Shown here piece after piece: positions 7,457 to 62,257 of a DNA stretch of 64,000 nucleotides (positions within the stretch are counted from its first letter, which is position 1; every line of letters begins with the position of its first letter). Source of the DNA: Moringa oleifera. Taxonomy: Eukaryota; Streptophyta; Magnoliopsida; Brassicales; Moringaceae. The notes below the pieces were generated by a model that was not told the DNA's origin, searched no databases, and was given only the letters and a program-made list of their open reading frames with translations. A program made the position numbers and the translations under genes. The stretch spans positions 964,001 through 1,028,000 of the forward strand of contig JAJFZO010000902.1 of assembly GCA_021397835.1 (NCBI GenBank), written 5' to 3'.

Positions 7457-8760
7457 CAAATTGAGAATCTGAGAATTCATGAATGCCTCCTTAAGACTGT
7501 AAATAAAAAGTTCAATCATCTAGTTAGAAAATAGAAGGTGCTATTAACACATAGATTTCAAAAGAGAAACAACAACTTAGTTACCTTTATAGAAAAGTAA
7601 ACTCACACATTTGGTTTGCTTTTAAAATTCAACACATGTAAAATTGATATAATTATGCACCTCAACTTAAGTTTATAAAAATGAAGAATAAAATGCTTCA
7701 ACTATTACTGCTCTAGAAATTTGGCAACTTAGCTTGATTTTCTCACTAGTGGGGTTAAAATTGTCATCCAAATCTTCACTTTTCACCTGAATAGCTACAA
7801 AATGAACGTTAAGCCTAGTATTCTCTACCTCATCAAAATTAAAAAGGTAGCAGCGGGATGATTTTCTCCAAGAATGATACGTTCCACTATGTTCCATACC
7901 ACAAAATAACCTTATTTTTACTAAATATGGGCATAGATTATGAAATACTACATTAAATTACTAAGAAAAAAAGTTTAACAAACTAAATTATCATACCAGG
8001 ACTTTGTAAGAGAGGAATACCCATCATGACTACAACTTGAGCAGCTAGAAGAGTTACTTCAGCAATCCATTTAGTAATAGGGTGCTTCACTTGTTTCCAA
8101 TGCTTGCTTATATTCATTGATAGTAAACATCCCAAGTACGTAAAAAGCAGGCCATTTTAGATGTAAAACAACATGTGCAAAGACAAGGACAAAACAAGGG
8201 GCAAATATATCAATGTGATTGTCCATATCCCAATTTAGAAATATCATCTGTTAAGATATCGATGCGAATGAAAATATGAGCACATAAAAATTATAACATA
8301 TACTTGAGGGCATGACCAGTAAAGTATACCTATAATTGAGGATACTTAACAGTAGCTGCTCCAACATAATTAACTATTTAGCCAGCCTTCTGGTTGGTTG
8401 CTTAAGTTTCTTGACAGTTTCTAGATGAGCCAAGTAATTTGACCCTCCTTAACAAATTATACCATGCACATTAAAAGAAAAAATCTCAATAATCTAAAAA
8501 GATAAATGCTATTCTTCTCTTCTTATCGTTGGGAATGTATGATATAACTTAAATTCCATAAAAACAAATAATAATATAAGAAAAACGTTGTATGAAATAA
8601 CCAAATCTAAATTCTATATCGACAAAAAAAAAAAAAACAGCCTTTTGATGCCTCTTTTGAATACTGCAATCACGACTATAAAAAGCTGCAACATTTCCAA
8701 AATGATGACAAAGTAGTTGAACCTTTAGATTCTGACTCTAGTTAGAAAATATGATAAAGA
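7457..8760 (-). pseudogene. ACC1: ACC biotin-carboxylase fragment, unit 0 (left edge, best preserved)
   Basis: Exon 1 at 8,642-8,716 (75 nt) is fully open: LLCHHFGNVAA then FYSRDCSIQKRHQK, the family's LLCDQYGNVAALHSRDCSVQ..HQK segment. Exon 2 at about 8,330-8,455 keeps LETVKKLKQPTRRLAK and NYVGAATV but is short and frameshifted. Exon 3 at 7,997-8,090 reads VKHPITKWIAEVTLLAAQVV. Exon 4 at 7,733-7,920 (188 nt) reads MEHSGTYHSWRKSS then SEDLDDNFNPTSEK. Exon 5 at 7,585-7,634 reads FKSKPNV*VYFSIK. Exon 6 at 7,457-7,496 reads GGIHEFSDSQFG. Together they cover about 200 codons of the ATP/biotin-binding half of biotin carboxylase, the domain that carboxylates biotin for malonyl-CoA synthesis. Lesions: stops, VEHP changed to VKHP, acceptor of exon 3 lost, donors of exons 1 and 4 lost. 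It alone keeps the full-length exon 4 and the GT donor after exon 5, so it resembles the founder of the array. Confidence 0.93.
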
Positions 8761-10258
8761 TCTAAACTGCTACACCATCTACATTGCTACTGCCACTACT
8801 ACTCCATCTACACTACTACTGCCATACTACTAATGCTACTCTATCCAAATTGCTATGGCTATATCACTGCTACTACTCCTTTAAACAACTGCTGCTACTG
8901 CAATACCACTATTGCTACTCCATTAAGCTACGACTGCTACTGTTACTCTATTTAAGCTGCTACAGCTACACTACAACTACTACTCAATCCGAACTACTAC
9001 TACTATACTGCTACAGCTTCTCCATATAAACTCCTGCTGCTACTCATCAAAACTGCTACTGCTTGTGCCTCTCTATTTAAACTACTGCTACTTGTGTTTT
9101 TTTATTTAAATTGCTATTGCTACTGCTAATCCATCTCAACCACTACTGTTGTACTACAATTGCTACTCTATCTAAACTTTTACTATTACTATAACTGCTA
9201 CAATGCTACACTGTTATTGCCACTGTTATATTGCTACTGCTACCTTATCAAAACTACTACAATACTACAACTACTACAATGCTGTACTAATATAATGCTA
9301 TATTACTGTTAGTAGCTTCTACTAACCAAAGTGAAAATCCCAGAATTCATGATTGCCTCCCCTGGATTGCAAGGAAAAAATTCAATCATTTAGTTAGAAA
9401 ATGAACCACGCTATCAAACACATAGTTTTGAAAAAAGAAAAAAATAAAATAACTTATCTTTACACAGAAGTAAGCCCACATATTTGGTTTAGCTCTCTTA
9501 AAAGTTATTAAATTATGCAACTTAACCCTAGTTCATAAAAATGTGCAATAAAATGCATCAACCATGATTGCTCAACAAAGCTAACAATTTACTTGAAGTT
9601 TCTTACCAATGGGTTTCAAACCATCATCCGAGTCTTCTCCTGACTAGTGAATAGCTAAAGAATAATCTTATGACCTTGTACTCTCTGCATTTTAAAATTA
9701 AAAGGGATTAGCAGTAGTCGAGAATTTTTATGCCAGAAAATAGCCTTATTTTTGATTAAATAGAGGCATATATTATGAGATACTGCATTAAATAACTATA
9801 AAGAACAATTTAACGAACTATACCATCGTACCAGTAATTTGCGAGAGAGGAACACCGGCCCCAAATGCAACTTGCATAGCAGAAAGTTTTACATCAACAA
9901 TCCACTCCGTAATTAGGTACTCCACCAATATGCAATACTTGCTGATATTCATTAACACTAAACATCTTAATAAGGTAGCTGGTAAGATATTTCAAATACA
10001 AAACGACTTGTGCTAAAACAACAACAAAACGAGGTCAAAGCATATCAACCAGATTATCTGTATCCTAAGTTAGAAATATCATCTTCAAAGATACCGATAT
10101 GAATAAATACACACAAATAAAAATTATGAAGTACACCTAAAGGAACAACCAGTAAAGTATACCTGCGATCCAAGATTAGGTACAAAACAATAGTATTTGT
10201 TGGGGTCCATGCTTTCAAGATACTCAACAGTTGCTGCTCCAAAATAATTATTTTAAAG
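8761..10258 (-). repeat. ACC array unit 1
   Basis: CTA-rich tract 8,761-9,310, the most regular in the array. Exon 6 is at 9,327-9,366 with its acceptor AG changed to AA. The exon 4 remnant near 9,600-9,760 has the 29-base deletion. Exon 3 at 9,832-9,925 reads VEYLITEWIVDVKLSAMQVA, keeping the Glu of the VEHP motif. Exon 2, about 10,164-10,250, reads NYFGAATVEYLESMD without a frameshift and then breaks off. The rest of exon 2 and exon 1 are missing because the unit is cut short and joined directly to a CTA tract. Confidence 0.9.
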
Positions 10259-11850
10259 GAATTGCTAATCAATTCAAGCTCCTACTGCTCTACTGTAACA
10301 GCTGCTCGATTTAAATTGCTAGTCTTACTGCTACTTATCAAAACTGCTACTCCTACTACTAAAGCATCTAAACTCCTATTGCTATGCTACTACTGCTGCT
10401 CTCTTAATTACTATTGCACTGTAGCTGCTACAATGCTAAACTGCTATTGGTATTGTTATAGTACTACTTTTACTATTATCGTGTTTATTGCTTTTAAATA
10501 AATAGTATGTTATTACCTAAAAAACATTAACGTACTCAAATAAGATTAGTAGCTTCTAGCTACCAAATTGAGAATCCCAGATTTCATGATTGCCTCTCCT
10601 GGACTGCAAGTAAGAAATTCAATCATTTAGTTAGAAAATGAACCATGCCATTAAACACATAGTTTTCAAAAAAGGGAAAAAACAAAATAACTTATCTTTA
10701 CACAAAACTAAGCCCACATATTTGGTTCAGCTCTCCTAAAAGTAAAAGAATTATACAGCTCAACTCCAGTTCATAAAAATGTGTAATAAAATTTGTCAAC
10801 CATGATTGCTCAAGAAAGCTGACAATTTACCTGCAGTTTCCCATCAGTGGGCTTAAACTCATCATCCGAGTCTTCTCTTGTCTAATGAACAGCTAAAGAA
10901 TAACCTTTCGACCTCGTACTCTCTATTTTTTCAAAATAAAAAGATGTTAGCGGTAGCTAAGGATTTTCATGCCAGAAGATAGCCTTATTTCTTATTAATT
11001 ATGAGATATTGCATTAAATAATTACAGAGAACAATTTAACGAGCTATACTATCATACGAGTAATTTACGGAGAGGAACACTGGCCCCGAATGCAACTTGC
11101 GAAGTAGAAAGTTTTTACATCAACAATCCACTCCGTAATTGGGTACTTCACCTGTATGCAATACTTGCTGACATTCATTACCAGAAAACATCTTAATAAG
11201 GTAGCTGGCAAGCCATTTCAAACACAAAATGACTTGTGCTAAAACCACAACAAAAACGAGGTCAAAACTTAAGAACCTGATTGTCTGCATCCCAAGTTAG
11301 AAATATCATCAACGTAGATATCGACATGAATGAATACACCCAAATAAAAATTATGAAGTATACCTGAGGGAACAGCCAGCAAAGTATACCTGCAATACAA
11401 GATTGGGTACTAGAAAATAGTATTTATTGGTGTCCATGCTTTCAAGATACTCAACAGTTGCAGCCCAAAAATAATTAACTATTTAGTGAACCTTTTAGTT
11501 GCTTGCTGAAGTTCATTGATAGTTTTCAAAAGAGCCAATGTAATTTGACCACATACATTAAAAAGTAAAGATCTCATAGAAACATTCTCCAAAAGGATAA
11601 AAGCTATTCTTCCCCTCTTATGATTGGGAAGGTAGGATATAACTTGAATTCAATAAAAAAAATAGCAAAATAAGAAAAACATTATACATAATAACCAAAT
11701 CTAAATTCAGTGGCAACAAACAGAATGACCCTTTTGGTGCCTCCTCTCGATATTACAATTCCTGCAATGGAAAGCTGCAACATTTTCATAATGATCACAA
11801 AGTAGCTGAACCACTACATTTCAACTCTAGTTAGAAAATACGATACATAT
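10259..11850 (-). repeat. ACC array unit 2 (shortened)
   Basis: Begins within a shortened CTA tract (10,259-10,490). Exon 6 is at 10,564-10,603, exon 4 near 10,850-10,990, exon 3 near 11,058-11,151 with a one-base insertion in a T run, exon 2 near 11,390-11,560 lacking its first codons, and exon 1 near 11,731-11,805. It ends at the tctaaacttttcctcc landmark. Confidence 0.9.
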
Positions 11851-12960
11851 CTAAACTTTTCCTCCGTCAAAACCTCTGCTGCTAGTCCTACTCCAACCAA
11901 ACTTCTATCGATATACTACTGCATTGCTATTACTACTCTATCCAGGCTACCACCACTATATGCCAGTGCTACTCCTCTAAACTGCTGCTACTAGTGCCAC
12001 TCTGTTTAAGCTACTATAGCTATACTACAATTACTTCTTAATCTGAACAGCTATTGTTATATAACTACAGCTACCCATTTAAACTGCTTCGATTACTCAT
12101 CAAAACTGCTACTACCTGTTCTTTTCTATCTAAATTGGAATTGCTACTCATGAAAGCTGGTATGACTACTGCTACTCATCAAAACTACTACTACCACTGC
12201 TAATCAAGCTAAATTGCTACTTCCTCCAAACTGCTATTGCTATACTCTTACTACTTTTGTTTTAAACTGTTGGCATTATAACTACTCCATTTAAGCTGCT
12301 ACACCTATACCGAAATTGTTAAGCAATTCGAGCTCCTACTACTCAATTGCAATAGCTACTCGATTTAAATTGCCAGTCTTATTGTTACTCATCAAAACTG
12401 TTGCTCCCACTACTAATGCATCTAAACTATTACTGCTATACTACTACTGCTCTCTCTGAATTGCTATTGCACTGCAATTACTACTATGCTATATTGCTAT
12501 TGTTGTTGTTATAGTGTTACTTTTACTATTATCGTGTTCACTATTCCTTTTAAATAAATAGTATGTTATTACTTAAAAAATACTAACGTACTCAAATGAG
12601 ATTAGTAGCTTCTACTTACCAAATTGAGAATCCCAGATTTTATGATTGCCTCCCTTGGACTGCAAGTAAGAAATTCAATCATTTAGTTAAAAAAATGAAC
12701 CAAGCTATGAAACACATAGTTTTGAAAAAAAAGGAAAAAACAAAATAACTTATTTTTAGACAGAAGTAAGCCTACGTATTTCGTTCAGCTCTCCTAAAAG
12801 TCAAAGAATTATGCAGCTCAACTCTAGTTCAAAATAACGTGCAATAAAATGCATCAACCATGATTGCTCAAGAAAGCGAACAATTTACCTGTAGTTTCCC
12901 ATTAATGGGTTCAAAATCATCTTCCGAGTATTCTTCTGTCTAGTAAACAGCTAAAGAATA
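11851..12960 (-). repeat. ACC array unit 3 (interrupted inside exon 4)
   Basis: Full CTA tract 11,851-12,560, exon 6 near 12,625, exon 5 near 12,760, then exon 4 from about 12,890. Array sequence stops at 12,960 right after ctaaagaata. In every other unit this is followed by acctttt-like sequence; here AT-rich non-array DNA follows. The rest of the unit is absent on both sides of the interruption. Confidence 0.9.
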
Positions 12961-14540
12961 TGAAAGAAATAAATAAATCAGGTTTTAGAATAAATATAAA
13001 AAAACTTTAAATTAAATTTATTTTTTAAAACTTTGGTATATTGATTGAATCAATTGTATGTTAGTTTTTCAATTTGGTTAGATTAGATATTAAGTCCAAA
13101 AGCTATAAATTAGACCTTAACTCTAATTATTGTAAAAGATTAAAGTAGTTTCATTGTTAAAACGTTCCAATAATAATTTAAATAAATTCTACGTATTTTT
13201 TGAGTTAATATTTTAATTTTGAACAATTTTGACTACAAATCATTTTTGTACAAATTTTTAAAATTAAAAAAATTTATTTTTTAATATTACAATTTAAACC
13301 ATTTTTTATATTTATAAAAATTTTAAAATTAAAATTTATTGTAAAATATTTTCAATTTGAATAGCCATTTTTAAAAAATTCACAACACAAACTAAATTGA
13401 AGTAAATTGAAAATTTTCAAGAAAACATTTATTGTACAAGATCTTAATTTTAATAATTTTTTAAAATTTTAAATTAATAACAACATTTAAATTGAACTCA
13501 ATTAAAATATAATACATACAATAAATTCAACAAGGGCAACTACAATTTAAAATTTATTATATTTATTTTAATTTTATTATGTATTTTATTAAATTTATCA
13601 TGTATAAATATCTTTTTCTATAATTAAATAAAGTAAAACATTAAAAGATTCTAAATCCTATCAAAACCTGAAGAATCAATTACATAAGAAACATACGGAG
13701 ATCAAGATGCCACATGAGATATCAATTTCTTGTGTTAATGTTATAAGTGAAAAAAGAAAGTGTCACGGATTATTAAACTAGGTACTATAGTCCTATAACA
13801 AGTTTATTTTTGTCACTTATTTGAGCCTTACCATGTTCTTTCCTTTATTATATAATGAATTATGAGTTTGAAAGAAGAATAGCCAAGATGTTTTCATTAG
13901 CATTAAAAGATGACAAAACCTTATGGCCTTTTATGTAAGACAAAATAGTGAGTCTGTGTCACAACTTGTCTTAGAGACTTTTTCAACTTAGACATCTTGA
14001 ATTGTTTCTACATTTACAGATGCTAAGAAGTCACTCGAAAGGCAAGTCCATAGGCGTGGATCTCTCTTTATTAAGGTTTAAGATCAAGAAAGTAGAGGGA
14101 AAGAAAAAAGAAAAAGGGTTCTCACATTTATTAAGGTCTAAGACCAAAGTAGAGGGGAGCTAAAAAGGTCTTTATAGTTTAATTATGGGATAAGGATTTT
14201 ATATTCATTTTAAATATTCTTTGGTCCCATGCCATTTTATTAGATTTTTTGCTTTTTGATTTTCAAGCAGATGGGTAAGACGAGATTTTTGGTTGATTTA
14301 TTATGTTGATATAAGAAATAAAAAATAAATTTTAATCAATAATTTTATTAAATTATTATATGTTATTATTTTATAAAAAAATTAACACAACTCAAAGTTA
14401 GTCGAAGATCTGAATCTTTTCTCATAACATGAGTACCAAAAGTTATACTATAATATCATCCTTGGTGCGTAGCGCTAAATGTATTTTTTTAGTGCTAAAT
14501 GTATATTTTAAACAAATAAATTTAGCCCTAAATAGATTAA
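12961..14540. other. AT-rich insert inside the array
   Basis: No exon recognised. 13,000-13,640 is extremely AT-rich. A run around 13,160-13,270 (taatttaaataaattcta, then tgaacaatttt) resembles 56,510-56,600, suggesting a dispersed AT-rich repeat. 13,690-14,180 is more complex sequence with two near-copies of a ctcacattta/tctttattaaggt..aagatca phrase (14,060-14,150). I could not assign it to a known element. Confidence 0.45.
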
Positions 14541-14640
14541 GTAGAAGGGAAAGTAGCAGTTTGAATAGAGTTGCAGTAGCTGTGTAGCAATATAAGAGCA
14601 TAACTGAGTAATGTTGTCGTAGGAGTATAGCAGGATTAGC
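14541..14640 (-). repeat. Inverted fragment of the CTA-rich minisatellite
   Basis: Reads gtagcag, gttgcagtagctg and gtagcaatat on the plus strand, the reverse complement of the CTA/CTG-rich tract that lies between ACC units in the opposite orientation. It ends at gattagc, directly at the start of the 5.1-kb duplicate, so an inversion or inverted insertion joint lies here. Confidence 0.8.
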
Positions 14641-14813
14641 AAGCATCATACACCACCGCATCCTATGCGATTGGAGTGTATAAGATAAAACTGTCAGACA
14701 AAAAGTGATATGCAAGCTCAAGTCCATCAACTTTAGACCAAGCTACATAGACAAGCCAAATAAATATTACTATAACGACTTCAGCTCTTGTATAAAGGTT
14801 GAAAAAAATTGCA
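14634..14813 (+). repeat. Dispersed duplicate, partner of 5,109-5,287
   Basis: Same orientation and word order as 5,109-5,287, with scattered substitutions and small indels. Similarity ends at aaaattgc; the sequence then continues with an A-run and unrelated DNA. Confidence 0.88.
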
Positions 14814-15523
14814 ACTTGACCCTTCAAAAAAAAAAAAACTTAATCCAGCTTCCACATGTAGGGTCAAACTATGAGACTTGCTATAAAATTAAGCGGCTGG
14901 TTCTAGCATTACTTTTGATGCATAGGAATTTCATGGATGAACCATTGAGTATGTATTCTTCATTATGTTACTAGTATGTCTTCTTTGTTGGTGCTATGGC
15001 TATATCTTTAAGCTGAGTTCTTGAAGCTGATTAGTCTTTAATAGCCATGCAATGGATGAACCACCATGTTTTCCTACAAAAGAAATTAAAATATTTATTT
15101 TTGTTTTAGGTATTGGAAAATCATATTGAAATATTTAAGCTTGTGTTAAGGCCCTAATCTAGGAGATATTCCTTTTCATGATAATTATCAATGACTAGTA
15201 GATAATATTTAGTGCATATGTTTTTTACCGCCTTTTTAAAGTTTTTTTTTCTTAATGGAAACAATTGTTTTATCTACAAAGAGCACCAAGGAGGTGTTAC
15301 CCATGTACAAGTATATCTAATTACATGTCAGAACAATGACGCCAATATGTTCCTGTTCATTTGTAGAAGAATGTCCCCTACACCATAAATGCAGTGTATG
15401 CTGCCATCTATTTTTCAGTGCCAAAATAGAGTTTTCTGTCTCTTCAAAAGACCTCTAATTTGTTTTATTCCATCCAAAGATGACCATGGAGAATAAGGAC
15501 ACTACTTTCTTAGTCTCATTTGG
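14814..15523. other. Spacer upstream of CNOT11 duplicate B
   Basis: No recognised gene. It runs from an A-rich patch at 14,827 to the left end of the duplicated block. Its minus-strand translation near 15,300-15,520 hints at a long degraded frame, but I could not match it to a transposon family. Confidence 0.4.
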
Positions 15524-18204
15524 ACCATTGACCCCTGTCCAAGGCCATACCTCTCTTGACTACTAGTCCGCACACCACCTAAGAAATGTCAATGTTGGAA
15601 AGGGCCTTCTTTTGTAATTGTCTTTTCCATGAACACCATAAGAGATATCAATGGTCTGTTTTTCCACCTCTCATAAATAACACCAATTTACTAAAATCAT
15701 CCACTTTTTCTATGGTTGTTTGTTATGAGAAATCTTCAGAATGCATCTATATAAGTGCAAAAGTTACTGATATGAGAAAGGAAGGAAAGGGTTGTAGGTT
15801 GTGTTAGCATTAATAGTAAGATTTAGGTTCTGTTTTTGAAAATTGATTTCTGAATAAAGAAAAAGATTCATGTTCCATGTACAAAGTGTAAAACTATGCT
15901 CTGTAGAAAAATAAGAGAGCATCACATATCTTAAGTAATGACTGAATTCTGATCTGGTTCTAGGGTAAATTGATTGCATCTATGGCTTATTTGACAATAA
16001 ATTTGCCTTTAAACTTGGAATTTCACAGACTACACATTCTATTTATACTTGTTGCATCAATAATTATTGATTAAGAAGAGACTTTTTCCTTTTCTTGTCT
16101 AGCAAGTCCTGGTGAAGTTGGTGAACGAACCAAAGCTTGTGTGTCACTGTGGGCTGACACCAAGGAAGCTATTGGTATGTGATCTGATAACTATAATGTA
16201 ACTTTTATTATATAATTTACATATTGCTGTGATATTCAAAGGTCTTGTATCTTGTTATCAGGAATTGGTGGAGAATAGTCCCCTAATTGCAGTTGAAGTT
16301 ATCACTAAGTTTATAAATTCTCTTGAAATTGCTAAGTGTGTTTCTAGTGGATAGTCTTTTTGGTTACTCTAATTAAAGAATACAATTCCATTGCCATTTT
16401 AACTTTAGTAAACTTGTATGATGTGGATGTCTGATATACGTATATTAATGCAGCTATTTTACACTTCTTATCAATAGAGAGATGAGCCTACATTCGATGG
16501 AAGTTGTGAATAGACTTACAACAACAGAACTTCCTAGAGATTTTAAACACCTGTACATGACTAATTGTATATCATCTTGCGAGAACATCAAGGTACATTC
16601 TTCTCCTATGCTTTGTGGTGATTCTTTTTGCTGGTTTTACTTCATTAGACATTCTAGGCATAAAAGGTTTGAAAACTTGAGTTGATCTGCTTCATTGTGC
16701 TTGGTTGGGTAAGTCTTCTTATGATGTGTCAATAGTTTTTCTGATAAGAAAAAAATGATGTCATCAATTTGAAACATTCAAGCTAAAGACAAGCATATTG
16801 GAGGATTAACTTTTTATACGTAAGAAAAGTAAAATTGTAACCAAAAGAAAAAAATTGAATGAATAAAAAAAGATAGAGAAAAAAACACTTAGACCTACAA
16901 ATTGCTCTCTATGAGCTAAATTTAGCCATATTAACAATTTTTTTTTATCAGGCCACACTAATAATTATTTTTAGCTTCTGTACAATTTCACTCTTCTAAC
17001 AAGGCTTTTCTGTAGCCTTAAAGATTTTTAGATTATGTTAACTGGAAATAACCTTCTTTTTTTTTTTTGGATAAATACATGCTAAACACGCTTGCCTGAC
17101 TTGTATGTGTTTTCCTGCAAAGTCTAATTCGAAATAAAATCATCGACAGTGCGTGTATTTTTCTACATCTAGGACTATTGTAATTGAGTAAGCTGGTTGT
17201 TGTTTGTGTAGCCTCTTAATATTATAGTCTGCGTTAATATTGTTGTTTGTGATGTGCAGAATTAAATATATGTAGATTTTAAAGCAACATATAGCTTGCA
17301 ACATAATTGTAGTAATAGCAATAAGCAATGTTAGGCTACTTATTTCAGTGGTGATATCTTAGGAAAAAGACTTAAATTCCTGATGCAATATGAAATCCTG
17401 ATTCAGTTGCAAAGTTGGTATTCCAAACTACATTTAATGGTGCCTCAAACTGACGTACTAGTATTGCTTGATATGGGTTTACCCTGTGTTCATAAGTCTT
17501 ATTTTTGGCAGCATTTTTTGTTGATACTAATTGATAACAATTTTTATGTAATGAATGAACTATTCATTGAAGTTCAATCTTTCTGCATTGAATTTTCATG
17601 AACTAGGGAAGCAGCTGGGTTGTTTAGGCTTCTAAAACCTTGGAATAACTGATCTTTATTGTTGAGTAATCTATGAGTTGAGCAGATACACTTGTGTTGG
17701 TTTTTTTTTTGAGTTTATAGATAATAACATGGCCACTTGGTTTTTTTAGTGCTCTTGGTGATATTGTAAGTGCCATATCACACTTTTTCTTGAACAATGA
17801 GAATTTTATTTTTCCTTCTCATTAGCAAAAAGGTAACTATAAGAAATTAGTGATGGTAACATGTAAGTGGGTTTACTTGTAGAACCAATATGGAGAGGGC
17901 TTCTTTATTGGAAGTTGTCTATGAGACAGTTGTACTAAAGCCGATTTTTGTGTATAGAGAACCGGTGAAGTTATGACCCAAATGTTTGATCTAATTGGCT
18001 GAACAAGTGAAGGTAAACAGCTTCCATATGCGTGTTCGCTTTGAAATTAGGTGAACAAAATTGAAAGGGGACGACCATTAGCATTAAAAAGAGTACTGTT
18101 GGTGCCTTCAAATGCAGAGAGAAGTTTCTCATGTGGAGTAACAAAATCTTCTAGGGTAGTGCTAATAGAACTTCTTAGTACAAGATGTGGTGACATTTAT
18201 GGCA
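15524..18204 (+). repeat. Segmental duplication, copy B
   Basis: Second copy of the block at 1-2,669, at least 2,681 bases long. It starts at accattgacccctgtcc and ends at gacatttatggca, 18,204. The next bases, tttctactgctactcatcc, belong to the CTA-rich tract of the ACC array, so this copy has been joined to, or inserted in, the array. Confidence 0.93.
16103..17651 (+). pseudogene. CNOT11: CNOT11 3'-half pseudogene, copy B
   Basis: The same five exons as copy A. Exons 1 (16,103-16,174), 2 (16,262-16,335) and 3 (16,454-16,592) are open and in phase across the junctions: [61 protein letters not shown]. Exon 4 (17,070-17,148) has lost its acceptor (tttttttttgg in place of ttttag) and has a TGA inside DKYMLNTLA*LVCVFLQSLI. 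Exon 5 (about 17,553-17,651) has lost its acceptor (atgtaa in place of tgtgcag) and carries a TGA in FCIEFS*TREAAGLFRLLK. The lesions differ from those of copy A, so each copy decayed on its own after the duplication. Exons upstream of the KLVNEPKLV segment are missing here too. Confidence 0.93.
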
Positions 18205-27740: not shown

Positions 27741-29831
27741 TCTAAACTTCTCCTCCGTCAAAACCTCTGCTGCTAGTCCTACTCAAACCAAACTTCTAAC
27801 GTTATACTACTGCACTGCCATTGCTACTCCATCTAAGTTACCACTGCTATATGCTAGTGCTACTCCTCTAAACTGCTGCTGCTAGTGCCACTTCGTTTAA
27901 GCTACTACAGCTATACTGCAATTACTTCTCAATTCGAACTGCTATTGTTATACAGCTACAGCTACCCGTTTAAACTCCTTTTATTACTCATCAAAATTGC
28001 TATTGCCTGTGCTTTTCTATCTAAACTTGAGTTGCTACTCATGAATGCTTCTACTACTACTCATCCAAGCTTCTATTACCGTTGCTAATCAAGTTAAACA
28101 GCTACTACTGATCCATCATAGCTACTACTCTCTCCGAATTACTACTGTTGTACTTTTATTACTTTTCTTTTAAACTTCTGGAGTTACAACTACTCCATTT
28201 AACCTTTTATACGTACACCGACATTGCTAATCATTTCGAGCTCCTACTGCTCAACTACAACGGCTGCTCGATTTAAATTGCCAATCTTACTGCTACTCAT
28301 CAAAACTACTAATCCCGCTACTAATGCATCTAAACTGCTACTGCTATACTACTACTGCTCCTCTCTCTGAATTACTATTACACTGCAACTGCTACGATGC
28401 TATACTGCTATTGGTATTGTTATAGTGCTACTTTTACTATTATCGTGCTCATTATTCCTTTTAAATAAACAATATGTTATTCCCTAAAAAATATTAATGT
28501 ACTCAAATGAGATTAGTAGCTTCTACTTACCAAATTGAGAATCTCAGATTTCATGATTGCCTCCCCTAGACTGCAAGTAAGAAATTCAATCATTTAGTTA
28601 GAAAATCAACCATGCTATTAAACATATAGTTAAAAAAAAAACAAAATAACTTATCTTTACACAGAAGTAAGCCTACATATTTGGTTCAGCTCTCCTGAAA
28701 GTCAAAGAATTATTCAGCCTAACTTTAGTTCATAAAAATGGGCAATAAAATACATCAACTATGATTGCTCAAGAAAGCTGACAATTTACTTGTAGTTTCC
28801 CATCAATGGGTTGCAAATCATTATCCGGTCTTCTCCTGTTTAGTGAATAGCTAAAGAATAACCTGTTGGCCTCGTACTCTCTGCTTTTTCCAAATTAAAA
28901 GGGGTTAGCGGTAGCTGAGGATTTTCATGCCAGAAAATAGCCTTCTTTCTTATTAAATATAGGCATAGATTTGACACACTGCATTAAATAACTACGGAGA
29001 ATAATTTAATGAAAAATAGTATCGTACCAGTTATTTGTGAACATCGGCCCCGAATGCAACAAGTGCAACATAAAGTTTTTCATCAACAATCCACTCCGTA
29101 ATTGGGTGCTTCACCTGTATGCAATACTTGCTGACATTCATTAACACTAAGCATCTTAATAAGGTAGCTAGCAAGCCATTTCAAATACAAAACACCTTAT
29201 GCCAAAACCACAACAAAAACGAGGTCAAAACTTATCAACCTGATTTTTTGCATCCCAGGTCAGAAATATCATCTACAAAGATATTGACATGAATGAATAG
29301 ATGCAAATAAAAATTATGAAGTACACCTGAGGGAACAACCAGCCATGTATACCTGCGATACAAGATTGGGTATTAAAAAATGGCATTTATTAGTGTCATG
29401 CTTTCAAGATACTCAACAATTGCAACTCAAAAGTAATTAACCATTTAGCAAACCTTTTAGGTGCTTGCTGAAGTTCCTTGATAGTTTTCAAAGTGGCCAA
29501 TGTAATTTGACTCTCCTTAATAATCTGTACCACACATATTCAAAAGTAAAGATCTAATAAAAACATTCTCTAAAAGGATAAATGCTATTTTTCCTCGCTT
29601 ATGGTTGGGCAACTAGGATATAACTTGAATTCAATAAAAAAAAATAGCAAAACAAGAAAAATATTATACGTAATAACCAAATCAAAATTCAGTGACAACA
29701 AAAAGAATGAACCTTCTTGTGCCTCCTCTCAATATTACAATCCCTGCAATGAAAAGCTACAACATTGTCATAATGATCACAAAGTAGCTGAATCACTATA
29801 TTTTAACTCTAGTTAGAAAATACGATACATA
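27741..29831 (-). repeat. ACC array unit 9 (complete)
   Basis: 2,091 bases. Exon 6 near 28,540; exon 4 near 28,795; exon 3 near 29,025-29,115, where about 10 bases coding LSQ are lost (ttatttgtgaacatcgg); exon 2 near 29,352-29,520; exon 1 near 29,712-29,786. Confidence 0.92.
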
Positions 29832-31941
29832 TCTAAACTTCTCCTCCGTCAAAACCTCTGCTGCTAGTCCTACTCCAACCAAACTTCTACCGCTATACAA
29901 TTGCACTGCCATTGCAACTCTATCAAAGCTACCACTGCTATATGCTAGTGCTACTCCTCTAAACTGCTGCTACTAGTGCCACTTCGTTTAAGCTACTACA
30001 GCTATACTGATATTACTTCTAAATTCGAACTGTTATTGTTATACAGCTACAGCTACCCGTTTAAACTACTTTTATTACTCATCAAAACTGCTACTGCTTA
30101 TACTTTTCTATCTGAACTTGAATTGCTACTCATGAAAGCTTCTACTACTACTGCTACACTTCCAAACTGCTATTATCGTTGCTAATCAAGTTAAACTGCT
30201 ATAGCTAATCCATAACAGCTACTGCTCTCTTCGAATTGCTACTGTTATACTTTTATTGTTATTCTTTTAAACATCTGGTGTTACAACTACTCCGTTTAAG
30301 CTTTTACACCTACACCGAAATTGCTAATCAATTCAAGCTCCTACTGCTTTACTGCAACGACTGCTCGATTTAAATTGCCAGTCTTACTCCTACTCATCAA
30401 AACAGTTACTCCCACTACTAATGCATCTAAACTGCTACTGCTATACTACTACTGCTCCTTTCTCTGAATTACTATTACACTGCAACTGCTATAATGCTAT
30501 ACTGCTACTGGTATTGTTATAGTGCTACTTCTACTATTATCGTGTTCACTATTCCTTTTAAATATACAGTATGTTATTACCTAAAAAATATTAATGTACT
30601 CAAATTAGATTAGTACCTTCTACTTACCAAATTGAGAATCCCAGATTTCATGATTGCCTTCCCTGGACTGCAAGTAAGAAATTCAATCATTTAGTTAGAA
30701 AATGAACCTTGCTATCAAACGTATAGTTTTGAAAAAAAAAATAACAAAATAACTTATCTTTACACAGAAGTAGGCCCACATATTTGGTTCAGCTCTCCTG
30801 AAAGTCCAAGAATTATGCAACCCAACTCTAGTTCATAAAAATGGGTAATAAAATACATCAACTATGATTGCTCAAGAAAGGTGACAATTTACCTGTAGTT
30901 TCTCATCAGTGGGTTTCAAGTCATTATCCGGTCTTCTCTTGTCTAGTGAATAGCTAAAGAATAACCTTTTGGCCTCATACTCTCTGCTTCTTCCAAATTA
31001 AAAAGGGTTAGCGATAGCTAAAGATTTTTATGCCAGAAAATAGCCTTATTTCTTATTAAATATAGGCATAGATTTGACATACTGCATTAAATAACTACGA
31101 GAACAATTTAATAAAATATACTATTGTACCAGCAATTTGTGAGAGAGGAACATCGGCCCTGAATGCAACATGTGCAGCATAAAGTTTTACATCAATAATC
31201 CACTCCGTAATTGGGTGCTTTACCTGCATGCTATACTTGCTGACATTCATTAACACTAAACATCTTAATAAGGTAGCTGGCAAGCCATTTCAAATACAAA
31301 ACACCTTATCCCAAAACCACAACAACAACGAGGTCAAAACTTATCAACCTGATTTTTCGCATCCCAAGTCAGAAATATCATCTATAAAGATATTGACATG
31401 AATGAATACTTGCAAATAAAAGTTATGAAATATACCTGAGGGAACAGCCAGCAAAGTGTACCTGCGATACAAGATTGGGTATTAAAAAATGGCATTTATT
31501 AGTGTCCATGTTTTCAAGATACTTAACAGTTGCAGCTCAAAAGTAATTAACCATTTAACGAACCTTTTAGTTGCTTGCTGAAGTTCCTTGATAGTTTTCA
31601 AAGGGGCCAATGTAATTTGACCCTCCTTAATAATCTGTACCACACATTAAAAAGTAAAGATCTAATAAAAACATTCTCTGAAAGGATAAATGCTATTCTT
31701 CCTCTCTTATGGTTGGGTAGATAGGATATAACTTGAATTCAACAAAAAAAAAAATAGCAAAACAAGAAAAATATTATACGTAATAACCAAATCAAAATTC
31801 AGTAACAATAAAAAAAATGAACCTATTGGTGCCTCCTCTCAATATTACAATCCATGCAATGAAAAGCTATAACATTTTCATAATGATCACAAAGTAGCTG
31901 AATCACTATATTTCAACTGTAGTTAGAAAATACGATACATA
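29832..31941 (-). pseudogene. ACC array unit 10, reference unit with exon map
   Basis: 2,110 bases; exon limits read from flanking AG and GT. Exon 1 is 31,823-31,897 (75 nt), exon 2 31,462-31,634 (173 nt, one base short of the 174 expected), exon 3 31,130-31,223 (94 nt), exon 4 30,893-31,051 (159 nt), exon 5 30,758 to about 30,808, and exon 6 30,628-30,667 (40 nt). Exon 2 reads IIKEGQITLAPLKTIKELQQ, then breaks frame before AATVEYLE. Exon 3 reads VKHPITEWIIDVKLYAAHVA; the family's VEHPVTEW Glu, part of the conserved ATP-grasp site, is Lys. Exon 4 has lost 29 bases covering the EHGGGYDAW segment seen in unit 0. Exon 5 keeps PNMWAYFCVK but its donor GT is AT. The CTA tract is 29,832-30,560. Confidence 0.92.
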
Positions 31942-34050
31942 TATAAACTTCTCCTCCGTCAAAACCCCTGCTGCTAGTCCTACTCCAACCAAACTTCTAC
32001 CCCATACTACTGCACTGCCATTGCTACTCTATCCAAGCTACCACTGCAATATGCTAGTGCTACTCCTCTAAACTACTGCTGCTAGTGCCACTTCGTTTAA
32101 GCTACTACAGCTATATTGCAATTACTTCTCAATTCGAACTGCTATTGTTATACAGCTACCCGTTTAAACTCCTTTTATTACATATCAAAACTGTTACTAC
32201 TTGTGCTTTTCTATCTAAACTTGAATTGCTACTCATGAAAGCTTCTACTGCTACTACTACTCATCCAAACTGCTTTTACTGCTGCTAATCAAGTTCAACT
32301 GCTACTACTAATCCATCACAGCTACTACTCTCTGCGAATTGCTGCTGTTATACTTTTATTACTTTCTTTTAAATTTTTGGTGTTACAACTACTCCAATTA
32401 AGTTTTTACACCTACAACGAAATTGCTAATCAATTCGAGCTCCTACTGCTCTACTGCAACGACTGCTCGATTTCAATTGCTAGTCTTACTGCTACTCATC
32501 AAAACTGCTACTCTCACTACTAATGCATCTAAACTGCTACTGCTATACTATTACTGCTCCTCACTCTGAATTACTATTACACTGCAACTGCTACAATGCT
32601 ATACTGCTATTGGTATTGTTATAGTGCTACTTTTACTATTATCGTGTTCACTATTCCTTTTAAATAAACAGTATGTTATTACCTAAAAAATATTAATGTA
32701 CTCACATGAGATTAGTAGCTTCTACTTACCAAACTGACAATCCCAGATTTCATGATTGCCTGCCCTAGATTGCAAGTAAGAAATTCAATCATTTAGATAG
32801 AAAATGAACCATGCTATCAAACGTATAGTTTTGAAAAAAAAAACAAAAAAACAAAATAACTTATTTTCACCCATAAGTAAGCCCACATATTTGGTTTAGC
32901 TCTCCTAAAAGTCAAAGAATTATGCAGCCCAACTCTAGTTCATAAAAATGGACAATAAAATACATCAACTATGATTGCTCAAGAAAGGTGACAATTTAGC
33001 TGTAGTTTCCCATCAGTGGGTTTTAAATCATCATTTGGTCTTCTCCTGTCTAGTGAATAGCTAAAGAATAACTTTATGGCCTCGTACTCTCTGCTTTTTC
33101 CAAATTAAAAGGGGTTAGCAGTAGCTGAGGATTTTCATGCTAGAAAATAGCCTTATTTCTTATTAAATATAGGCATAGATTTGACATACCGCGTTAAATA
33201 ACTACGGAGAACAATTTAATGAAATATATTATCATACCAGTAATTTGTGAGAGAGGAACATCGGCCCTGAATGCAACATGTGCAGCATAAAGTTTTACAT
33301 CAAAAATCTACCCCGTAATTGGGTGCTTCACCTGTATGCAATACTTGCTGACATTCATTAACGCTAAACATCTTAATAAGGTAACTGGCAAGCCATTTCA
33401 AATGCAAATCATCTTATGCCAAAACCACAACAAAAACGAGGTCAAAACTTATCAACCTGATTTTTCGCATCCCAAGTCAGAAATATCATCTATAAAGATA
33501 TTGACATGAATGAATACTTGCAAATAAAAATTATGAAATATACCTGAGGGAACAGCCAGCAAAGTATACCTGCGATACAAGATTGGGTAGTAAAAAATGG
33601 CATTTATTAGTGTCCATGCTTTCAAGATACTCAACAGTTGCAGCTCAAAAGTAATTAACCATTTAGCGAATCTTTTAGTTGCTTGCTGAAGTTCCTTGAT
33701 AGTTTTCAAAGGGGCCAATGTAATTTAACCCTCCTTAATAATCTGTACCGTACACATTAAAAAGTAAACATTTAACAAAAATATTCTCTGAAAGGATAAA
33801 TGTTATTCTTCCCTTTTCATGGTTGGGCAGGTAGGATATAACTTGAATTCAATAAAAAAAAAAAAACAAAACAAGAAAAATATTATACGTAATAACCAAA
33901 TCAAAATTCAGTGACAACAAAAAGAATGAACCTTCTGATGCCTCATCTCAATATTACAATCCCTGCAATGAAAAGCTGCAACATTTTCATAATGATCACA
34001 AAGTAGGTAAATCACTATATTTCAACTCTAGTTAGAAAATACGATACATA
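31942..34050 (-). repeat. ACC array unit 11 (complete)
   Basis: 2,109 bases. Exon 6 near 32,735; exon 4 near 33,005; exon 3 near 33,240-33,332 with a TGA (gggtagatttttgatg); exon 2 near 33,568-33,740; exon 1 near 33,930-34,005. Carries the aaggggcc variant of exon 2 also seen in units 10 and 12. Confidence 0.92.
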
Positions 34051-36462
34051 TCTAAACTTCCCCTCCGTCAAAACCTCTGCAGTTAGTCCTACTCCAACCA
34101 AACTTCTACCCTATACTACTGCACTGCCATTGCTACCCTATCCAAGCTACCACTGCTATATGCTAGTGCTACTCCTCTAAACTACTGCTGCTAGTGCCAC
34201 TTCGTTTAAGCTACTACAGCTATATTGCAAATACTTCTCAATCCGAACTGCTATTGTTATACAGCTACAGCTACCCGTTTAAACTCCTTTTATTACTCAT
34301 CAAAACTGCTACTGCTTGTGCTTTTCTATCTAAACTTGAATTTTTACTCATGAAAGCTTTTACTACTACTGCTACTCATCCAAACTGCTATTACCGTTGC
34401 TAAGCAAGTTACACTGCTACTGCTAATCCATCACAGCTACTACTCTCTGCGAATTGTTACTGTTATACTTTTATTACTTTTCTTTTAAACTTCTGGTGTT
34501 ACAACTACTCCATTTAAGCTTTTACACCTACATCAAAATTACTAATCAATTTGAGCTCCTGCTGCCTTACTGCAACTGCTTGATTTAAATTGCCAATCTT
34601 ATTGCTACTCATCAAAATTGCTACTCCCACTACTAATGTATCTAAACTGCTACTGCTATACTACTACTGCACCTCTCTCTAAATTACTATTACATTGCAA
34701 CTGCTACAATGCTATGCTGCTATTGGTATTGTTATAGTACTACTTTTACTATTATCGTCTTCACTATTCCTTTTAAATAAACAGTATGTTATTACCTAAT
34801 AAATATTAATGTACTCAAATGAGATTAGTAGCTTCTACTTACCAAATTGAGAATCCCAGATTTCATAATTGCCTATCTTAGACTGCAAGTAAGAAATTCA
34901 ATCATTTAGTTAGAAAATGAACCTTGCTATCAAACGTATAGTTTTGAAAAAAAAAAACAAAAAAACAAAATAACTTATCTTTACACAGAAGTAAGCCCAC
35001 ATATTTGGTTCAGCTCTCCTGAAAGTCAAAGAATTATGCAGCCCAACTCTAGTTCATAAAAATAGGCAATAAAATATATCAACTATGATTGCTCAAGAAA
35101 GGTGACAATTTACCTGTAGTTTCCCATCAGTGGGTTTCAAATCATCATCCGATCTTCTCCTGTCTAGTGAATAGCTAAAGAATCACCTTTTGGCCTCGTA
35201 CTCTCTGCTTTTTCAAATTAAAAGGGGTTAGTTGTAGCTAAGGATTTTCATACCAGAATATAGCCTTATTTCTTATTAAATATAGGCATAGATTTGACAT
35301 ACTGCGTTAAATAACTACGGAGAACAATTTAATGAAATATACTATCGTACCAGTAATTTGCGAGGGAGGAACATCGGCCCCGAATGCAACATGTGCAGCA
35401 TAAAGTTTAACATCAACAATCCACTCTGTAATTAGGTGCTTCACCTGTATGCTATACTTGCTGACATTCATTAACACTAAACATCTTAATAAGGTAATTG
35501 GCAAGCCATTTCAAATACAAAACGCCTTATGCCAAAACCACAACAAAAACGAGGTCAAAACTTATCAACATGATTTTTCGCATCCTAAGTCCGAAATATC
35601 ATCTATAAAGATATTGACATGAATGAATACATGCAAATAAAAATTATGAAGTATACTGAGGGAACAGCCAGCAAAGTATACTTGCGACACAAGATTGGGT
35701 ATTAAAAAATGGCATTTATCAGTGTCCACGCTTTCAAGATACTCAACAGTTAGAGCTCAAAAGTAATTAACCATTTAGCAAACCTTTTAGTTGCTTGCTG
35801 AAGTTCCTTGATAGTTTTCAAAGGGGCCAATGTAATTTGACCCTCCTTAGTGATCGGTACCACACACTTTAAAATGTAAAGATCTAATAAAAACATTCTC
35901 TAAAAGGATAAATGCTATTCTTCCCCTCTTATGGTTGGAAAGATAAGATATAATTTGAATTCAATAAAAAAAAAGCAAAATAAGAAAAACATCATACATA
36001 ATAACCAAATCTAAATGTAATGACAATAAAAAGAATGAACCTTACGGTATCTCCTCTGAATATTACAATCCCTACAACGAAAAGCTACAACATATTTATG
36101 ATGATCACAAAGTAACTGAACCACTAAATTTTAATTTCAATTAGAAAATATGATACAAATTGCAAAACAAGAAAAATATTATACGTAATAACAAAATTTT
36201 AATAAAAATTTTAATAAAAAAACATACTCTTTTATGGTTGGGCAGGTAGGATATAACTGGAATTTAATAAAAAAATTGCAAAACAAGAAAAATATTATAC
36301 GTAATAACAAAATCAAAATTTAGTGACAACAAAAAAAATGAACCTTCTGGTGCCTCATCTCAATATTACAATCCCTGCAATGAAAAGCTGCAACATTTTC
36401 ATAATGATCACAAAGTAGCTGAATCACTATATTTCAACTGTAGTTAGAAAATACGATACATA
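34051..36462 (-). repeat. ACC array unit 12 (recombinant, two copies of exon 1)
   Basis: 2,412 bases, about 300 longer than its neighbours. The stretch 35,900-36,158 is nearly the same as the end of unit 13 (about 38,290-38,557), including the diagnostic ccttacggtatctcctctg exon 1 variant. It is followed, at tgcaaaac near 36,159, by a second exon 1 region of the unit 11 type (about 36,335-36,410). The unit is therefore a chimera of two array subtypes. Other exons: 6 near 34,850, 4 near 35,115, 3 near 35,350-35,445, 2 near 35,680-35,850. Confidence 0.91.
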
Positions 36463-38558
36463 TCTAAACTTCTCCTCTGTCAAAACCTCTGCTGCGAGTC
36501 CTACTCCAACGAAACTTCTACCGCTATACTACTGCACTGCCATTGCTACTCTATCCAAGCTACCACTGGTATATGCTAGTGCTACTACTCTAAACTGCTA
36601 CTGCCACTTCGTTTAAGCTACTACAGCTATACTGCAATTACATCTCAATTCGAACTACTATTGTTATGCAGCTACAGCTACCCGTTTAAACTCCTTTTAT
36701 TACTCATCAGAACAGCTACTACCTGTGCTTTTCTATCTAAACTTGAATTGCTACTCATGAAAGCTTTTACTATTACTGCTACTCATCTAAACTGCTATTA
36801 CCGTTGCTAATCAAGTTAAACTGCTACTGCTAATCCATCATAGCTACTGCTCTCAGCGAATTGCTACTGTTATACTTTTACTACTTTTCTTTTAAACTTT
36901 TGGTGTTACAACTACTCCATTTAAGCTTTTACACCTACATCAAAATTGCTAATCAATTCGAGCTCCTACTGCTCTACTGCAACGGCTGCTCGATTTAAAT
37001 TGCCAGTCTTACTGCTACTCATCAAAACTGCTACTCTGACTACTAATGCATCTAAACTACTACTGCTATACTACTACTGCTCCTCTCTCTGAATTACTAT
37101 TACACTGCAACTACTACAATGCTATACTGCTACTGGTATTGTTATAGTGCTACTTTTACTATTATCATGTTCATTATTCCTTTTAAATAAACAGTATGTT
37201 ATTACCTAAAATATATTAACGTACTCAAATAAGATTAGTAGCTTCTACTTACCAAATTGAGAATCCTAGATTTCATGATTGCCTCCCTTGGACTGCAAGT
37301 ATGAAATTCAATCATTTAGTTAGAAAATGAACCATGCTATCAAACACTTAGTTTTGAAAAAAAAAATAAAATAACAAAATAACTTATCTTTACACAGAAG
37401 TAAGCCCACGTATTTGGTTCAGCTTTCCTAAAAGTCAAAGAATTGTGCTGCTCAACTCTAATTCATAAAAATGGGCAATAAAATGCATCAACTATGATTG
37501 CTCAAGAAAGATGACAATTTACCCGTAGCTTCCCATCAGTGGGTTTTAAATCATCATTCGAGTCTTCTCCTGTCTATTGAACAGCTAAAGATTAACCTTT
37601 TGGCTTCATACTCTCTGCTTTTCCAAAATTAAAAAAGGTTAGCGGTAGCTAAGGATTTTCATGCCAAAAAATTGCCTTATTTCTTATTAAATATAGGCAT
37701 GGATATACTGCATTAAATAACTACGGAGAGCAATTTAACAAACTATACTGTCATACCAGGAATTTGCAAGAGAGGAACACCGACCGCGGATGCAACTTAC
37801 GCAGCAGAACATTTTACATCAACAATCCATTCTGTAATTGAGTGCTCCACCTGTATACAATACTTGCTGACATTCATTAACACTAAACATCTTCATAAGG
37901 TAGTTGGCAAGCCATTTCAAATACAAAACGACTTGTGCCAAAACCACAACAAAACAAGGTCAAGACTTATCAACCTGATTGTCCGTATCCTAAGTTAGAA
38001 ATATCATCTACAAAGATATCGACATGAATGAATACACTCAAATAAAAATTATGAAGTATACTTGAGAGAATAACCAGTAAAGTATACCTGCGATACAAGA
38101 TTGGATACTGAAAAATAGTATTTATTGGTATCCATGCTTTTAAGATACTCAACAGTTGCATCTTAACCATTTAGCGAACCTTTCAGTTGCTTGTTGAAGT
38201 TCCTTGATAGTTTTCAAAGGAGCCAATGTGATTTGACCCTCTTTAATAATCTGTACCATACACATTAAAAAGTAAAGATCTCATAAAAATATTCTCAAAA
38301 AGGATAAATGCTATTCTTCCCCTCTTATGGTTGGAAAGATAAGATATAATTTGAATTCAATAAAAAAAAAAAAGCAAAATAAGAAAAACATCATATATAA
38401 TAACCAAATCTAAATGTAATGAGAATAAAAAGAATGAACCTTACGGTATCTCCTCTGAATATTACAATCCCTACAACGAAAAGCTATAACATATTTATGA
38501 TGATCACAAAGTAACTGAACCACTAAATTTTAATTTCAATTAGAAAATATGATACAAA
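36463..38558 (-). repeat. ACC array unit 13 (divergent subtype)
   Basis: 2,096 bases. Exon 3 (about 37,758-37,850) reads VEHSITEWIVDVK with a later TAA, keeping the Glu that units 4-12 have lost. Exon 1 near 38,430-38,505 carries ccttacggtatctcc. Exon 2 near 38,090-38,250 has a further deletion that fuses tgcatc to ttaaccattt. Sequence divergence from units 4-11 is higher than among those units. Confidence 0.91.
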
Positions 38559-39720
38559 TCTAAACTTCTCCTCCATCAAAATGTCTACTTCTAGTGCCAC
38601 ACCAACCAAACTTCTACTGCTACATTACTGTACTAGTATTGTTACTTTATCCAGACTACCACTACTATATGCCAGTGCTACTTTTCTAAACTGTTGCTGC
38701 TAGTGCCACTTCGTTTAAGTTACTACAGCTATACTGTAACTAGTTGTCAATTCGAACTACTATTGTTATACTACTACAGCTACCCGTTTAAACTCCTACT
38801 ACTACTCATCAAAACTGCTACTGCTTGTACTTTTCTATCTAAATTGCAATTACTACTCATGAAAGCTGCTACTACTACTGCTACTCATCAAAACTGCTAC
38901 TACCACTACTAATCAAGCTAAAGTGCTACTGGTAATCCATCTTAACTGTTCTTTTATCCAAACTGTTAGTGTTATATTACTACTGCTTCTCCTTTAAACT
39001 GTTACTGTTACAACTACTTCATTTAAGCTGCTATAATTATACCAAAATTGATACTCAAAATATTAACATACTCAAATGAGATTAGTAACTTCTACTTACC
39101 AAATTAAGAATCTCAGAATTCATGAATGCCTCCTCTAGACTGCAAGTAAGAAATTTAATCACTTAAGTAGAAAATGGACCATGCTATCAATATATAGTTT
39201 TGAAAAAAAAATAAAATAAATTATCTTTACAAAAAGGCAAGCCCACACATTTGGATTGCTTTCGAAATTCAACTCTTTTAAAAGTCATAGAATTATGCAG
39301 CTCAACTCTAGTTCGTAAAAATGAGGAATAAAATGCGTCAACTGTGACTGCTCAAGAAACCTAACAATTTACCTGTACTTTCCCACTGGTAGGTTTAAAA
39401 CCATCATGTGGATCTTCATTTATCACATGAACAACTACACAATGACCTTTCGACCTAGAGCTATTTCTCTTGTCAAAATCAAAAGGGGTTAGTAGCAATT
39501 AATGTTATTTCTGATTAAATATAAGCATACACTACATTAAATGACTAAGGAAAAATGTTTAATGAACTTCACTATCGTACCCAAAATTTGCCAAAGAGGA
39601 ACACCCATCCTGATTGCAACTTGAGCAGCTGAAAGGTTTACTTCGGCAATCCACTCCGTAACTAGGTGCTCCATCTATATCTAGTACATACTGATATTCA
39701 TTAACATTAAACGTCTCAAT
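38559..39720 (-). pseudogene. ACC fragment, unit 14 (right edge of array)
   Basis: CTA tract 38,559-39,050. Exon 6 near 39,102-39,141 reads GGIHEF*DS*FG. Exon 5 near 39,230-39,285 reads ELNFESNPNVWACLFVK, the closest match to the family's ELSFKSKPNVWAYFSVK. Exon 4 from 39,373 reads NPFDFDKRNSSRSKGHC then INEDPHDGFKPTSGKVQ. Exon 3 at 39,581-39,674 reads MEHLVTEWIAEVNLSAAQVA then PLWQIL, closer to plant ACC than any internal unit. The catalytic-site Arg of the VRVTSEDP segment is His here. The array ends near 39,720, upstream of exon 2. Confidence 0.92.
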
Positions 39721-47626: not shown

Positions 47627-47675
<49 letters not shown>

Positions 47676-50691: not shown

Positions 50692-50699
50692 CTCATCAA

Positions 50700-60361: not shown

Positions 60362-60395
<34 letters not shown>

Positions 60396-62221: not shown

Positions 62222-62257
<36 letters not shown>

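Follow-up and report, generated by a model that had tools for sequence, protein, structure and literature searches.

A satellite-like array in Moringa oleifera probably grown from a captured internal fragment of an acetyl-CoA carboxylase gene

We analyzed a 64,000-nt stretch of the Moringa oleifera genome (G000:C125:964001-1028000), hereafter the window, and found in it a tandem array whose monomer derives from an internal piece of the gene for plant acetyl-CoA carboxylase (ACC). Window coordinates are used throughout unless a contig is named. With the unit at 22279-24384 as the blastn query, 15 units, whole or partial, were found to lie head to tail on the minus strand between positions 7420 and 39726. 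Considered together with related copies elsewhere in the genome, the array is quite probably a neutral satellite that grew by unequal recombination from a captured ACC fragment fused to a minisatellite, and that was also dispersed and macro-amplified. No protein function or cellular role is proposed for the array.

A whole unit is ~2.1 kb long, and the full units consist of exons A-F of the biotin-carboxylase domain of ACC with their introns and a TAG-rich minisatellite. When the window was searched by tblastn with Arabidopsis ACC1 (identical to database protein P0001; matches above 24 bits reported), only residues 257-483 of the query were matched, exon by exon in gene order and always on the minus strand, with exon A proper starting near residue 269. 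The window was also considered as a dead whole ACC gene, which was rejected because the matches were limited to these residues. In the representative full unit u7 (22279-24384, 2106 bp, minus strand), which was characterized by tblastn and by alignment of unit and parent, gapped matches placed exons A, B, C and D approximately at ~23944-24036, ~23597-23775, ~23272-23368 and ~23069-23183, and exons E-F between 22761 and ~22960. An example of the minisatellite, with a ~29-bp period, was located at 18445-18515 by Tandem Repeats Finder and junction alignment, and similar rows with periods of 20-29 bp recurred in other units. Pfam revealed no ACC domain in single reading frames of the array, a search of solved structures with one exon gave only a chance match (E 0.37), and scans of the window for tRNAs and RNA families gave no matches.

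The array DNA amounts to ~27.06 kb in two blocks, both on the minus strand. The left block (7420-12960), delimited by blastn with its ACC exons placed by tblastn, comprises u1 (7420-9083), u2 (9056-10250, partial), u3 (10260-12168) and u4 (12142-12960, partial). The right block (18204-39726) comprises u5 (18204-20177, with an internal deletion), u6 (20169-22285), u7, u8 (24380-26462), u9 (26458-28059, with ~0.5 kb deleted), u10 (28051-30150), u11 (30146-32253), u12 (32251-34368), u13 (34364-36775, partly duplicated), u14 (36771-38877) and u15 (38845-39726, partial). When the window was compared with itself, extended parallel matches appeared at offsets of 2079 bp, of 2106 bp and close to multiples of these, and no inverted matches of units were obtained at E 1e-10. 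In an ungapped autocorrelation of 18204-38877, the best value was 0.340 at lag 2099, compared with a maximum of 0.290 in the control, for which 20 block-shuffles were scored at every fifth lag. A preliminary description of this DNA had proposed about 15 repeated units of ~2.1 kb over ~27 kb, visible as parallel lines at 2.1-kb spacing, and both proposals are confirmed by these results. The head-to-tail order stands, with the correction that the array is interrupted at 12961-18203.

The core units u5-u13 (n=9) showed mutual identities of 91.3-93.8%, and u3 and u14 were 86.0-88.2% identical to the remaining compared units. By blastn, u2 was 79% identical to u7, and the edge units u1 and u15 were ~69-71% identical to it. 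The array thus has the makeup of a tandem repeat: one monomer, head to tail, with a homogenized core (91-94%) and edges at ~70%. An assembler that multiplied one or a few units could also give an array, and the region is hard to assemble because pieces of these arrays turn up on numerous contigs. However, the 11 units compared differed by 6-14%, each array edge had its own flank, and the longest exact repeat anywhere in the window was 109 bp. The shortness of this repeat is indirect evidence against duplicated reads or a mis-join, and we regard misassembly as extremely improbable.

The source of the units was found in the same genome. The Pfam ACC central domain was present at a single place, on contig C3 (7 matches, 8 of 8 candidates scored), where the exon pieces of the parent gene span C3:6653857-6667264 on the minus strand and cover 2248 of the 2270 positions of the guide protein. 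Stops in these pieces were confined to introns or overlapping piece ends, and the parent gene at C3:6.654-6.667 Mb is therefore apparently intact. Its nearest full-length relatives in a set of 5.8 billion proteins were the ACC proteins of Diplodiscus, Pterospermum and Reevesia (88% identical), and ACC isoforms of Theobroma showed 89% identity over 62%. The unit covers C3:6665639 to ~6664037, from 25 bases before exon A to ~60 bases beyond exon F. This parent interval is also the one spanned by u1 and by the array consensus, and u15 falls inside it. The consensus retains the introns except for a stretch missing between ~6665122 and 6664920, and the fragment was therefore copied from DNA rather than from messenger. 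Other parts of the 30-kb parent locus were absent from the window and from nine other loci compared, save for one weak dispersed repeat at C3:6672.7 kb. These results bear out the preliminary description in several respects. The translated search places the units in ACC, the six consecutive, intron-containing exons that had been described correspond to exons A-F of the genome's own gene with AG/GT borders, the alignment to the apparently intact gene defines the amplified interval, and the proposal that a set interior stretch of ACC was amplified in the manner of a satellite, together with its introns and the minisatellite, is supported. One correction is that the exons are read on the minus strand. 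As for the peptide motifs that had been quoted, ACC-like exons are indeed present, but several of the motifs are preserved whole in an edge unit (u1 or u15) or the parent alone.

To what extent the units have evolved as coding sequence was assessed in 11 of the 15 units, u1, u2, u4 and u15 being left out as partial or diverged. Divergence among these units averaged 0.098 for exons, 0.092 for introns and 0.093 for the minisatellite, and their divergence from the parent was 0.249 in exons and 0.248 in introns. Differences between units at the first, second and third codon positions were 0.104, 0.092 and 0.097. Exon E was 7 bases short in 10 of the 11 units and absent in the eleventh, exon D was 28-30 bases short in 10 and 53 bases short in u9, and the tblastn alignments revealed in-frame stops in the array exons. 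Because exon and intron divergence are equal and the length changes break the frame, the units look dead, and the array is judged to be a pseudogenic, non-coding satellite; a coding function is ruled out by the same two observations. The specific proposal that the units serve as working exons for a protein with repeated domains could draw on the several exons that are still recognizable and on some splice sites that are kept. We give it practically no credence in view of the equal exon and intron divergence, the near-equal change at the three codon positions, the frame-shifting changes in exons D and E and the in-frame stops.

Reading the array as a local one, as the preliminary description had done, is correct but too narrow, as the fragment is dispersed over many contigs, forms a second array class and takes part in a macro-repeat. 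A protein search of the genome gave at least 166 exon-level matches, with E up to 10 and those of the parent included, among the best 150 of 1452 first-look candidates. A diagnostic 28-mer from the end of exon A occurred 443 times with at most 3 mismatches, parent included, and its reversed control 0 times. A 41-mer typical of the 2.1-kb array class occurred 224 times (control, 0), with 2.1-kb steps on C107, C221, C249 and others. On C249, a 2.12-kb array was 93-95% alike in long self-matches (9 kb of the 33.7-kb contig). The array on C523 is built differently: an ACC piece corresponding to 6665638-6665022 (exons A-B only) is joined to roughly 270 bp of minisatellite and repeated every ~0.88 kb, with ten units in 9 kb that were 79-86% alike among the 15 self-matches listed. 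The seed thus gave at least two array classes, one of ~2.1 kb with exons A-F in the window and many contigs, and one of ~0.88 kb with exons A-B on C523. On C205, array-class copies were observed in both orientations (12025 and 17345-19489), unlike in the window.

The copies share a breakpoint. Among 18 dispersed loci (L015-L032, of which L017/L020 and L018/L022 overlap and L015/L016 are both on C555), 15 contained a piece whose first base corresponds to parent position 6665639 or 6665640. In the 80 bases upstream of this point, TAG-type 3-mers reached 0.30-0.57 in 17 copies on 8 contigs, which were picked because they reach that base, compared with 0.12 in the parent, where the corresponding sequence is ordinary intron. 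A junction common to so many copies indicates one capture event, and judging from these alignments one capture probably seeded the whole family. Dispersed pieces outside C555 were 77-86% identical to the parent, and the array consensus and the C249 units were 70-77% identical to it. We also compared the copies in a tree of 35 copy rows and the parent, from which matches of <350 query bases were left out, as were L020, L022, L023, L026 and L032, which overlap other loci used; the tips L025/L034 and L030/L037 are each doubled for one place, and L015/L016 are near-identical. The C125/C555 array class came out as a single clade (0.98), in which u1 and its macro-copy took the outermost position, and the dispersed copies fell into several other groups. 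The path to the parent was 0.31-0.46 for the array class and 0.22-0.33 for the dispersed copies. The two members of a tandem ACC pair at C563 (L018) each grouped with different C25 copies (support 1.00 each), which indicates that the dimer predates its spread. Beside the dispersed copy at L036, a reading frame at 6239-6460 resembled, by eye, a LINE reverse transcriptase.

At a larger scale, the array itself has been copied. The region C125:1040501-1049500 is colinear with window 3577-12524 (93.8%, shift 72,924 bp), and C125:1028001-1038000 matches C125:955031-965072 (93.5%, shift 72,970 bp). Macro-repeat starts were located at C125:955111, 976960 and 1028081, which gives macro-units of ~22 and ~51 kb, 73 kb together. 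The second macro-unit opens with the interruption at 12961-18203, which is a 5.2-kb copy of the macro-repeat start, 93.9% identical to C125:955111-960354 and 95.9% identical to C125:1028081-1033316, and its part 15524-18204 is ~90% like window 1-2669. The junction between u15 and an adjoining 14-3-3 gene fragment was found at full length, with 91-100% identity, at at least 24 places on 14 contigs, window included (40 of 232 candidates scored), and the four such junctions on C125 are spaced 68.7, 72.1 and 50.7 kb apart. In the array flank, C125:956816-963148 and 963141-969472 form a 6.3-kb tandem duplication (90%).

In the copies, one unbroken stretch of ACC with its introns is joined to a TAG-rich minisatellite, and this chimera, with its recurring breakpoint, is dispersed over numerous contigs and on several of these adjoins pieces of other genes. 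We propose that the capture would have happened once. The minisatellite flanking the ACC piece on both sides would give unequal exchange the similar sequences that it needs, which would make the chimera prone to tandem growth. Central units would have been homogenized by exchange, and edge units would have kept their divergence because they rarely exchanged; a homogenized centre with non-homogenized edges is what models of unequal crossing-over predict. The 2.1-kb arrays were also copied as parts of macro-repeats.

ACC copies are adjoined by fragments of other genes. The fragment adjoining u1 (6872-7362, minus strand) carries a remnant of Rpb2 domain 2 at 6958-7044 (Pfam PF04561, E 6.6e-5); it is common to L033 and L036 and also comes after ACC at C12 and C51. 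The Rpb2-bearing block was matched at least 45 times across the genome (40 of 51 candidates scored), and a lone match on C533 is a candidate that may be its source. The fragment adjoining u15 (39728-40907, minus strand) carries what by eye is the last exon of a 14-3-3 gene, at ~39859-40092. The L035 block matching this flank scored E 4e-7 for PF00244, just below the curated cut-off, and a parent-like 14-3-3 copy (83%) is located at C3:7383356-7383935. At ~1951-2097 of L035, near 14-3-3 and ACC fragments, a remnant of a prolyl oligopeptidase (S9) scored just below the Pfam cut-off. On C12, pieces of Tic110 and AAA, then ACC and the Rpb2-bearing block of the window follow one another on one strand, and 14-3-3 and ACC occur together at C563; these mosaics contain fragments of several host genes, as do gene-fragment-carrying Helitrons. 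A Tic110 gene covering most of the profile was found at C518. In all there were 64 Tic110 matches (72 of 72 candidates scored), and all except this gene fell within profile positions 50-217, with dispersed fragments on C572, C75, C51, C12, C522 and C53. Fixed-fragment spread is thus not confined to ACC, given the dispersal of the Tic110 fragment and of the Rpb2-bearing block. By position, Tic110 and ACC fragments adjoined each other on the same strand at five sites, distributed over three contigs (C12:8.27, C51:0.384 and 0.352, and C572:0.53 and 1.29 Mb). A single shredded chromosome block was considered as the source and rejected, as the ACC gene is on C3 and the Tic110 gene on C518. The dispersed copies of this fixed internal Tic110 fragment include one at L033:481-1339, and on part of C572 they recur at 38-39 kb steps.

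A Helitron, or another DNA transposon that captures genes and lacks inverted ends, may have carried out the initial capture and dispersal, though this assignment is uncertain; the mosaics of several genes with their introns retained would fit a Helitron. About as likely a vehicle is repair-type copying (template switching, patch insertion) with segmental duplication, which would have made and spread the mosaics without a transposon, tandem growth proceeding as proposed above; we give this alternative a substantial chance, somewhat short of even. The large common blocks without recognizable ends, the clustering of matches in restricted parts of C563, C25 and C12, the macro-repeats of several sizes and the age of the ACC pair at L018, older than its spread (support 1.00 each), are all in keeping with repair-type copying. 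It accounts less well for the Tic110-ACC order repeated on the same strand at the five places on three contigs and for fragments from at least two parental contigs (C3, C518), perhaps three (C533), standing together; this recurring order and these sources resemble gene-capturing elements, of which orientation bias is a trait. A further possibility, which we consider unlikely, is that the seed spread by itself, its minisatellite arms allowing the ACC chimera to come out in circular form and then to insert anew or expand through recombination, with no classical transposon. If so, one fragment would have spread, dimerized before dispersal and given satellites of different monomer length at separate loci, and other fragments, such as the Tic110 exons (profile 50-217), would have gone the same way.

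Several points weigh against the origin by single capture, transposon-like dispersal and unequal exchange. The unequal exchange is itself deduced from the pattern of the array. Three of the 18 dispersed loci start elsewhere in the parent (L023 at 6665482, L026 at 6665625 and L028 at 6665626). The 3' ends of the copies vary, the ACC piece extending to ~6663657 in some of them, and the original capture would therefore have been longer than the window unit. Between units and parent, change at the second codon position was lower (0.191) than at the first (0.274) and third (0.282), which we take to reflect constraint on the parent, although early constraint on the copies may be mixed in with it. 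Remnants of CNOT11 (CCR4-NOT subunit 11) and of an ankyrin-repeat gene in the window lie on the strand opposite to ACC, and a single orientation is therefore no rule. As regards the vehicle, Helitrons end in 5' TC and 3' CTRR with a hairpin and insert between A and T, and Pack-MULEs have terminal inverted repeats and a 9-bp target duplication. A 10.2-kb block is common to the copies on C12 and C51; at its edges, which may not be true ends, no terminal inverted repeat or hairpin was seen, and the TC/CTRR signature, looked for at the edges of this block only, was not seen either. Helitron_like_N (PF14214) gave no match in the genome (1 candidate scored) and no match in the controls either.

A regulatory role was weighed as well, in which array transcripts would give rise to small RNAs that silence ACC. 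Such a role has been described for partial repeats of ARR17 in poplar, where, in the available part of the report, five partial repeats in one species are >90% alike and have inverted arms (PMC8455832). The likeness lies in several partial copies of one gene at a separate locus (PMC8455832); the ACC copies differ in numbering hundreds, in being old and in their direct order within the window, and most of them have diverged too far to match the parent messenger. Exact matches to the spliced parent exons reached 35 bases in u1 and 21 bases in u15, but only <=17 bases in the remaining 13 of the 15 units, so that the edge units resemble ACC most closely; inverted copies are absent from the window, though C205 has both orientations. 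Silencing by the array core is disfavoured by the short exact matches, and we consider the regulatory reading as a whole very improbable.

Other features of the window were recorded outside the array. Two remnants of CNOT11 lie on the plus strand at 1544-1639 and 1986-2087, in two frames (Pfam PF10155, E 1.8e-4, below the cut-off, and 2e-6, above it), and a remnant of a MORN-repeat gene lies on the minus strand at 4352-4744, with its motif at 4526-4594 (PF02493, E 5e-4, below the curated cut-off). The segments 41654-42398 and 49952-50707 are duplicates (83.5%), and the first contains the ankyrin-repeat remnant (42065-42322), which by eye comes from a CCCH zinc-finger gene. A ~508-bp unit is present in three copies at 43210-44737 (~93.5% identity), and a separate tandem array with a period of 165-168 bp and ~72-73% matches occupies 50712-53062. 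Very AT-rich DNA with runs of A and T was found at 45726-48392 and 53153-55160 (~66-70% alike between blocks), and 59876-60623 and 61802-62541 form a direct duplicate (88%).

Arrays with comparable beginnings have been described in other systems. Stellate and Sdic of Drosophila are tandem arrays whose monomers come from pieces of coding genes, and they are transcribed genes; the ACC array is similar in the derivation of its monomer and differs in that its monomers are broken fragments. Reviews name transposons and ribosomal DNA (rDNA) spacers as satellite seeds, and in satellites of this kind, as here, a non-satellite sequence becomes the array monomer and higher-order units are possible (PMC5615363; PMC9659126). 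In contrast to them, the seed here is a piece of a protein-coding gene with introns and a minisatellite, and dispersed copies of it, single or as dimers, are still present as well. Plant Helitrons that carry gene fragments and Pack-type elements resemble the present case in their mosaics of fragments from several genes and their many copies; for maize, a count over 22 Mb gave 187 Helitrons with captured fragments (PMC2773423). Here, however, no ends and no target site were seen at the C12/C51 block, no Rep match was obtained in a search that had no positive control, and the captured ACC fragment went on to form satellite arrays. The satellite-like arrays carried by Helentrons in the Pacific oyster are likewise dispersed short tandem arrays on mobile elements, but the available part of that report states no host-gene exon origin for the oyster repeats (PMC7492417). 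Among the titles and abstract openings listed from the open-licence literature, no satellite made from ACC was found, which does not prove absence.

The origin of a satellite is usually hard to trace because the source sequence is gone or unknown. What we rate as new here is that the genome retains the seed and the source of the satellite together with its intermediate stages: dispersed copies that stand alone, dimers, the 0.88-kb array, the 2.1-kb arrays and the macro-repeats that contain arrays. Because the source gene is present, the breakpoint is located to the exact base and the stages are available for direct comparison, the birth of a satellite becomes testable step by step. There is a warning for annotation as well: ACC-like exons number in the hundreds in a genome of this kind, and they are not genes. 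The case shows that an ordinary gene can be the starting point of satellite DNA.

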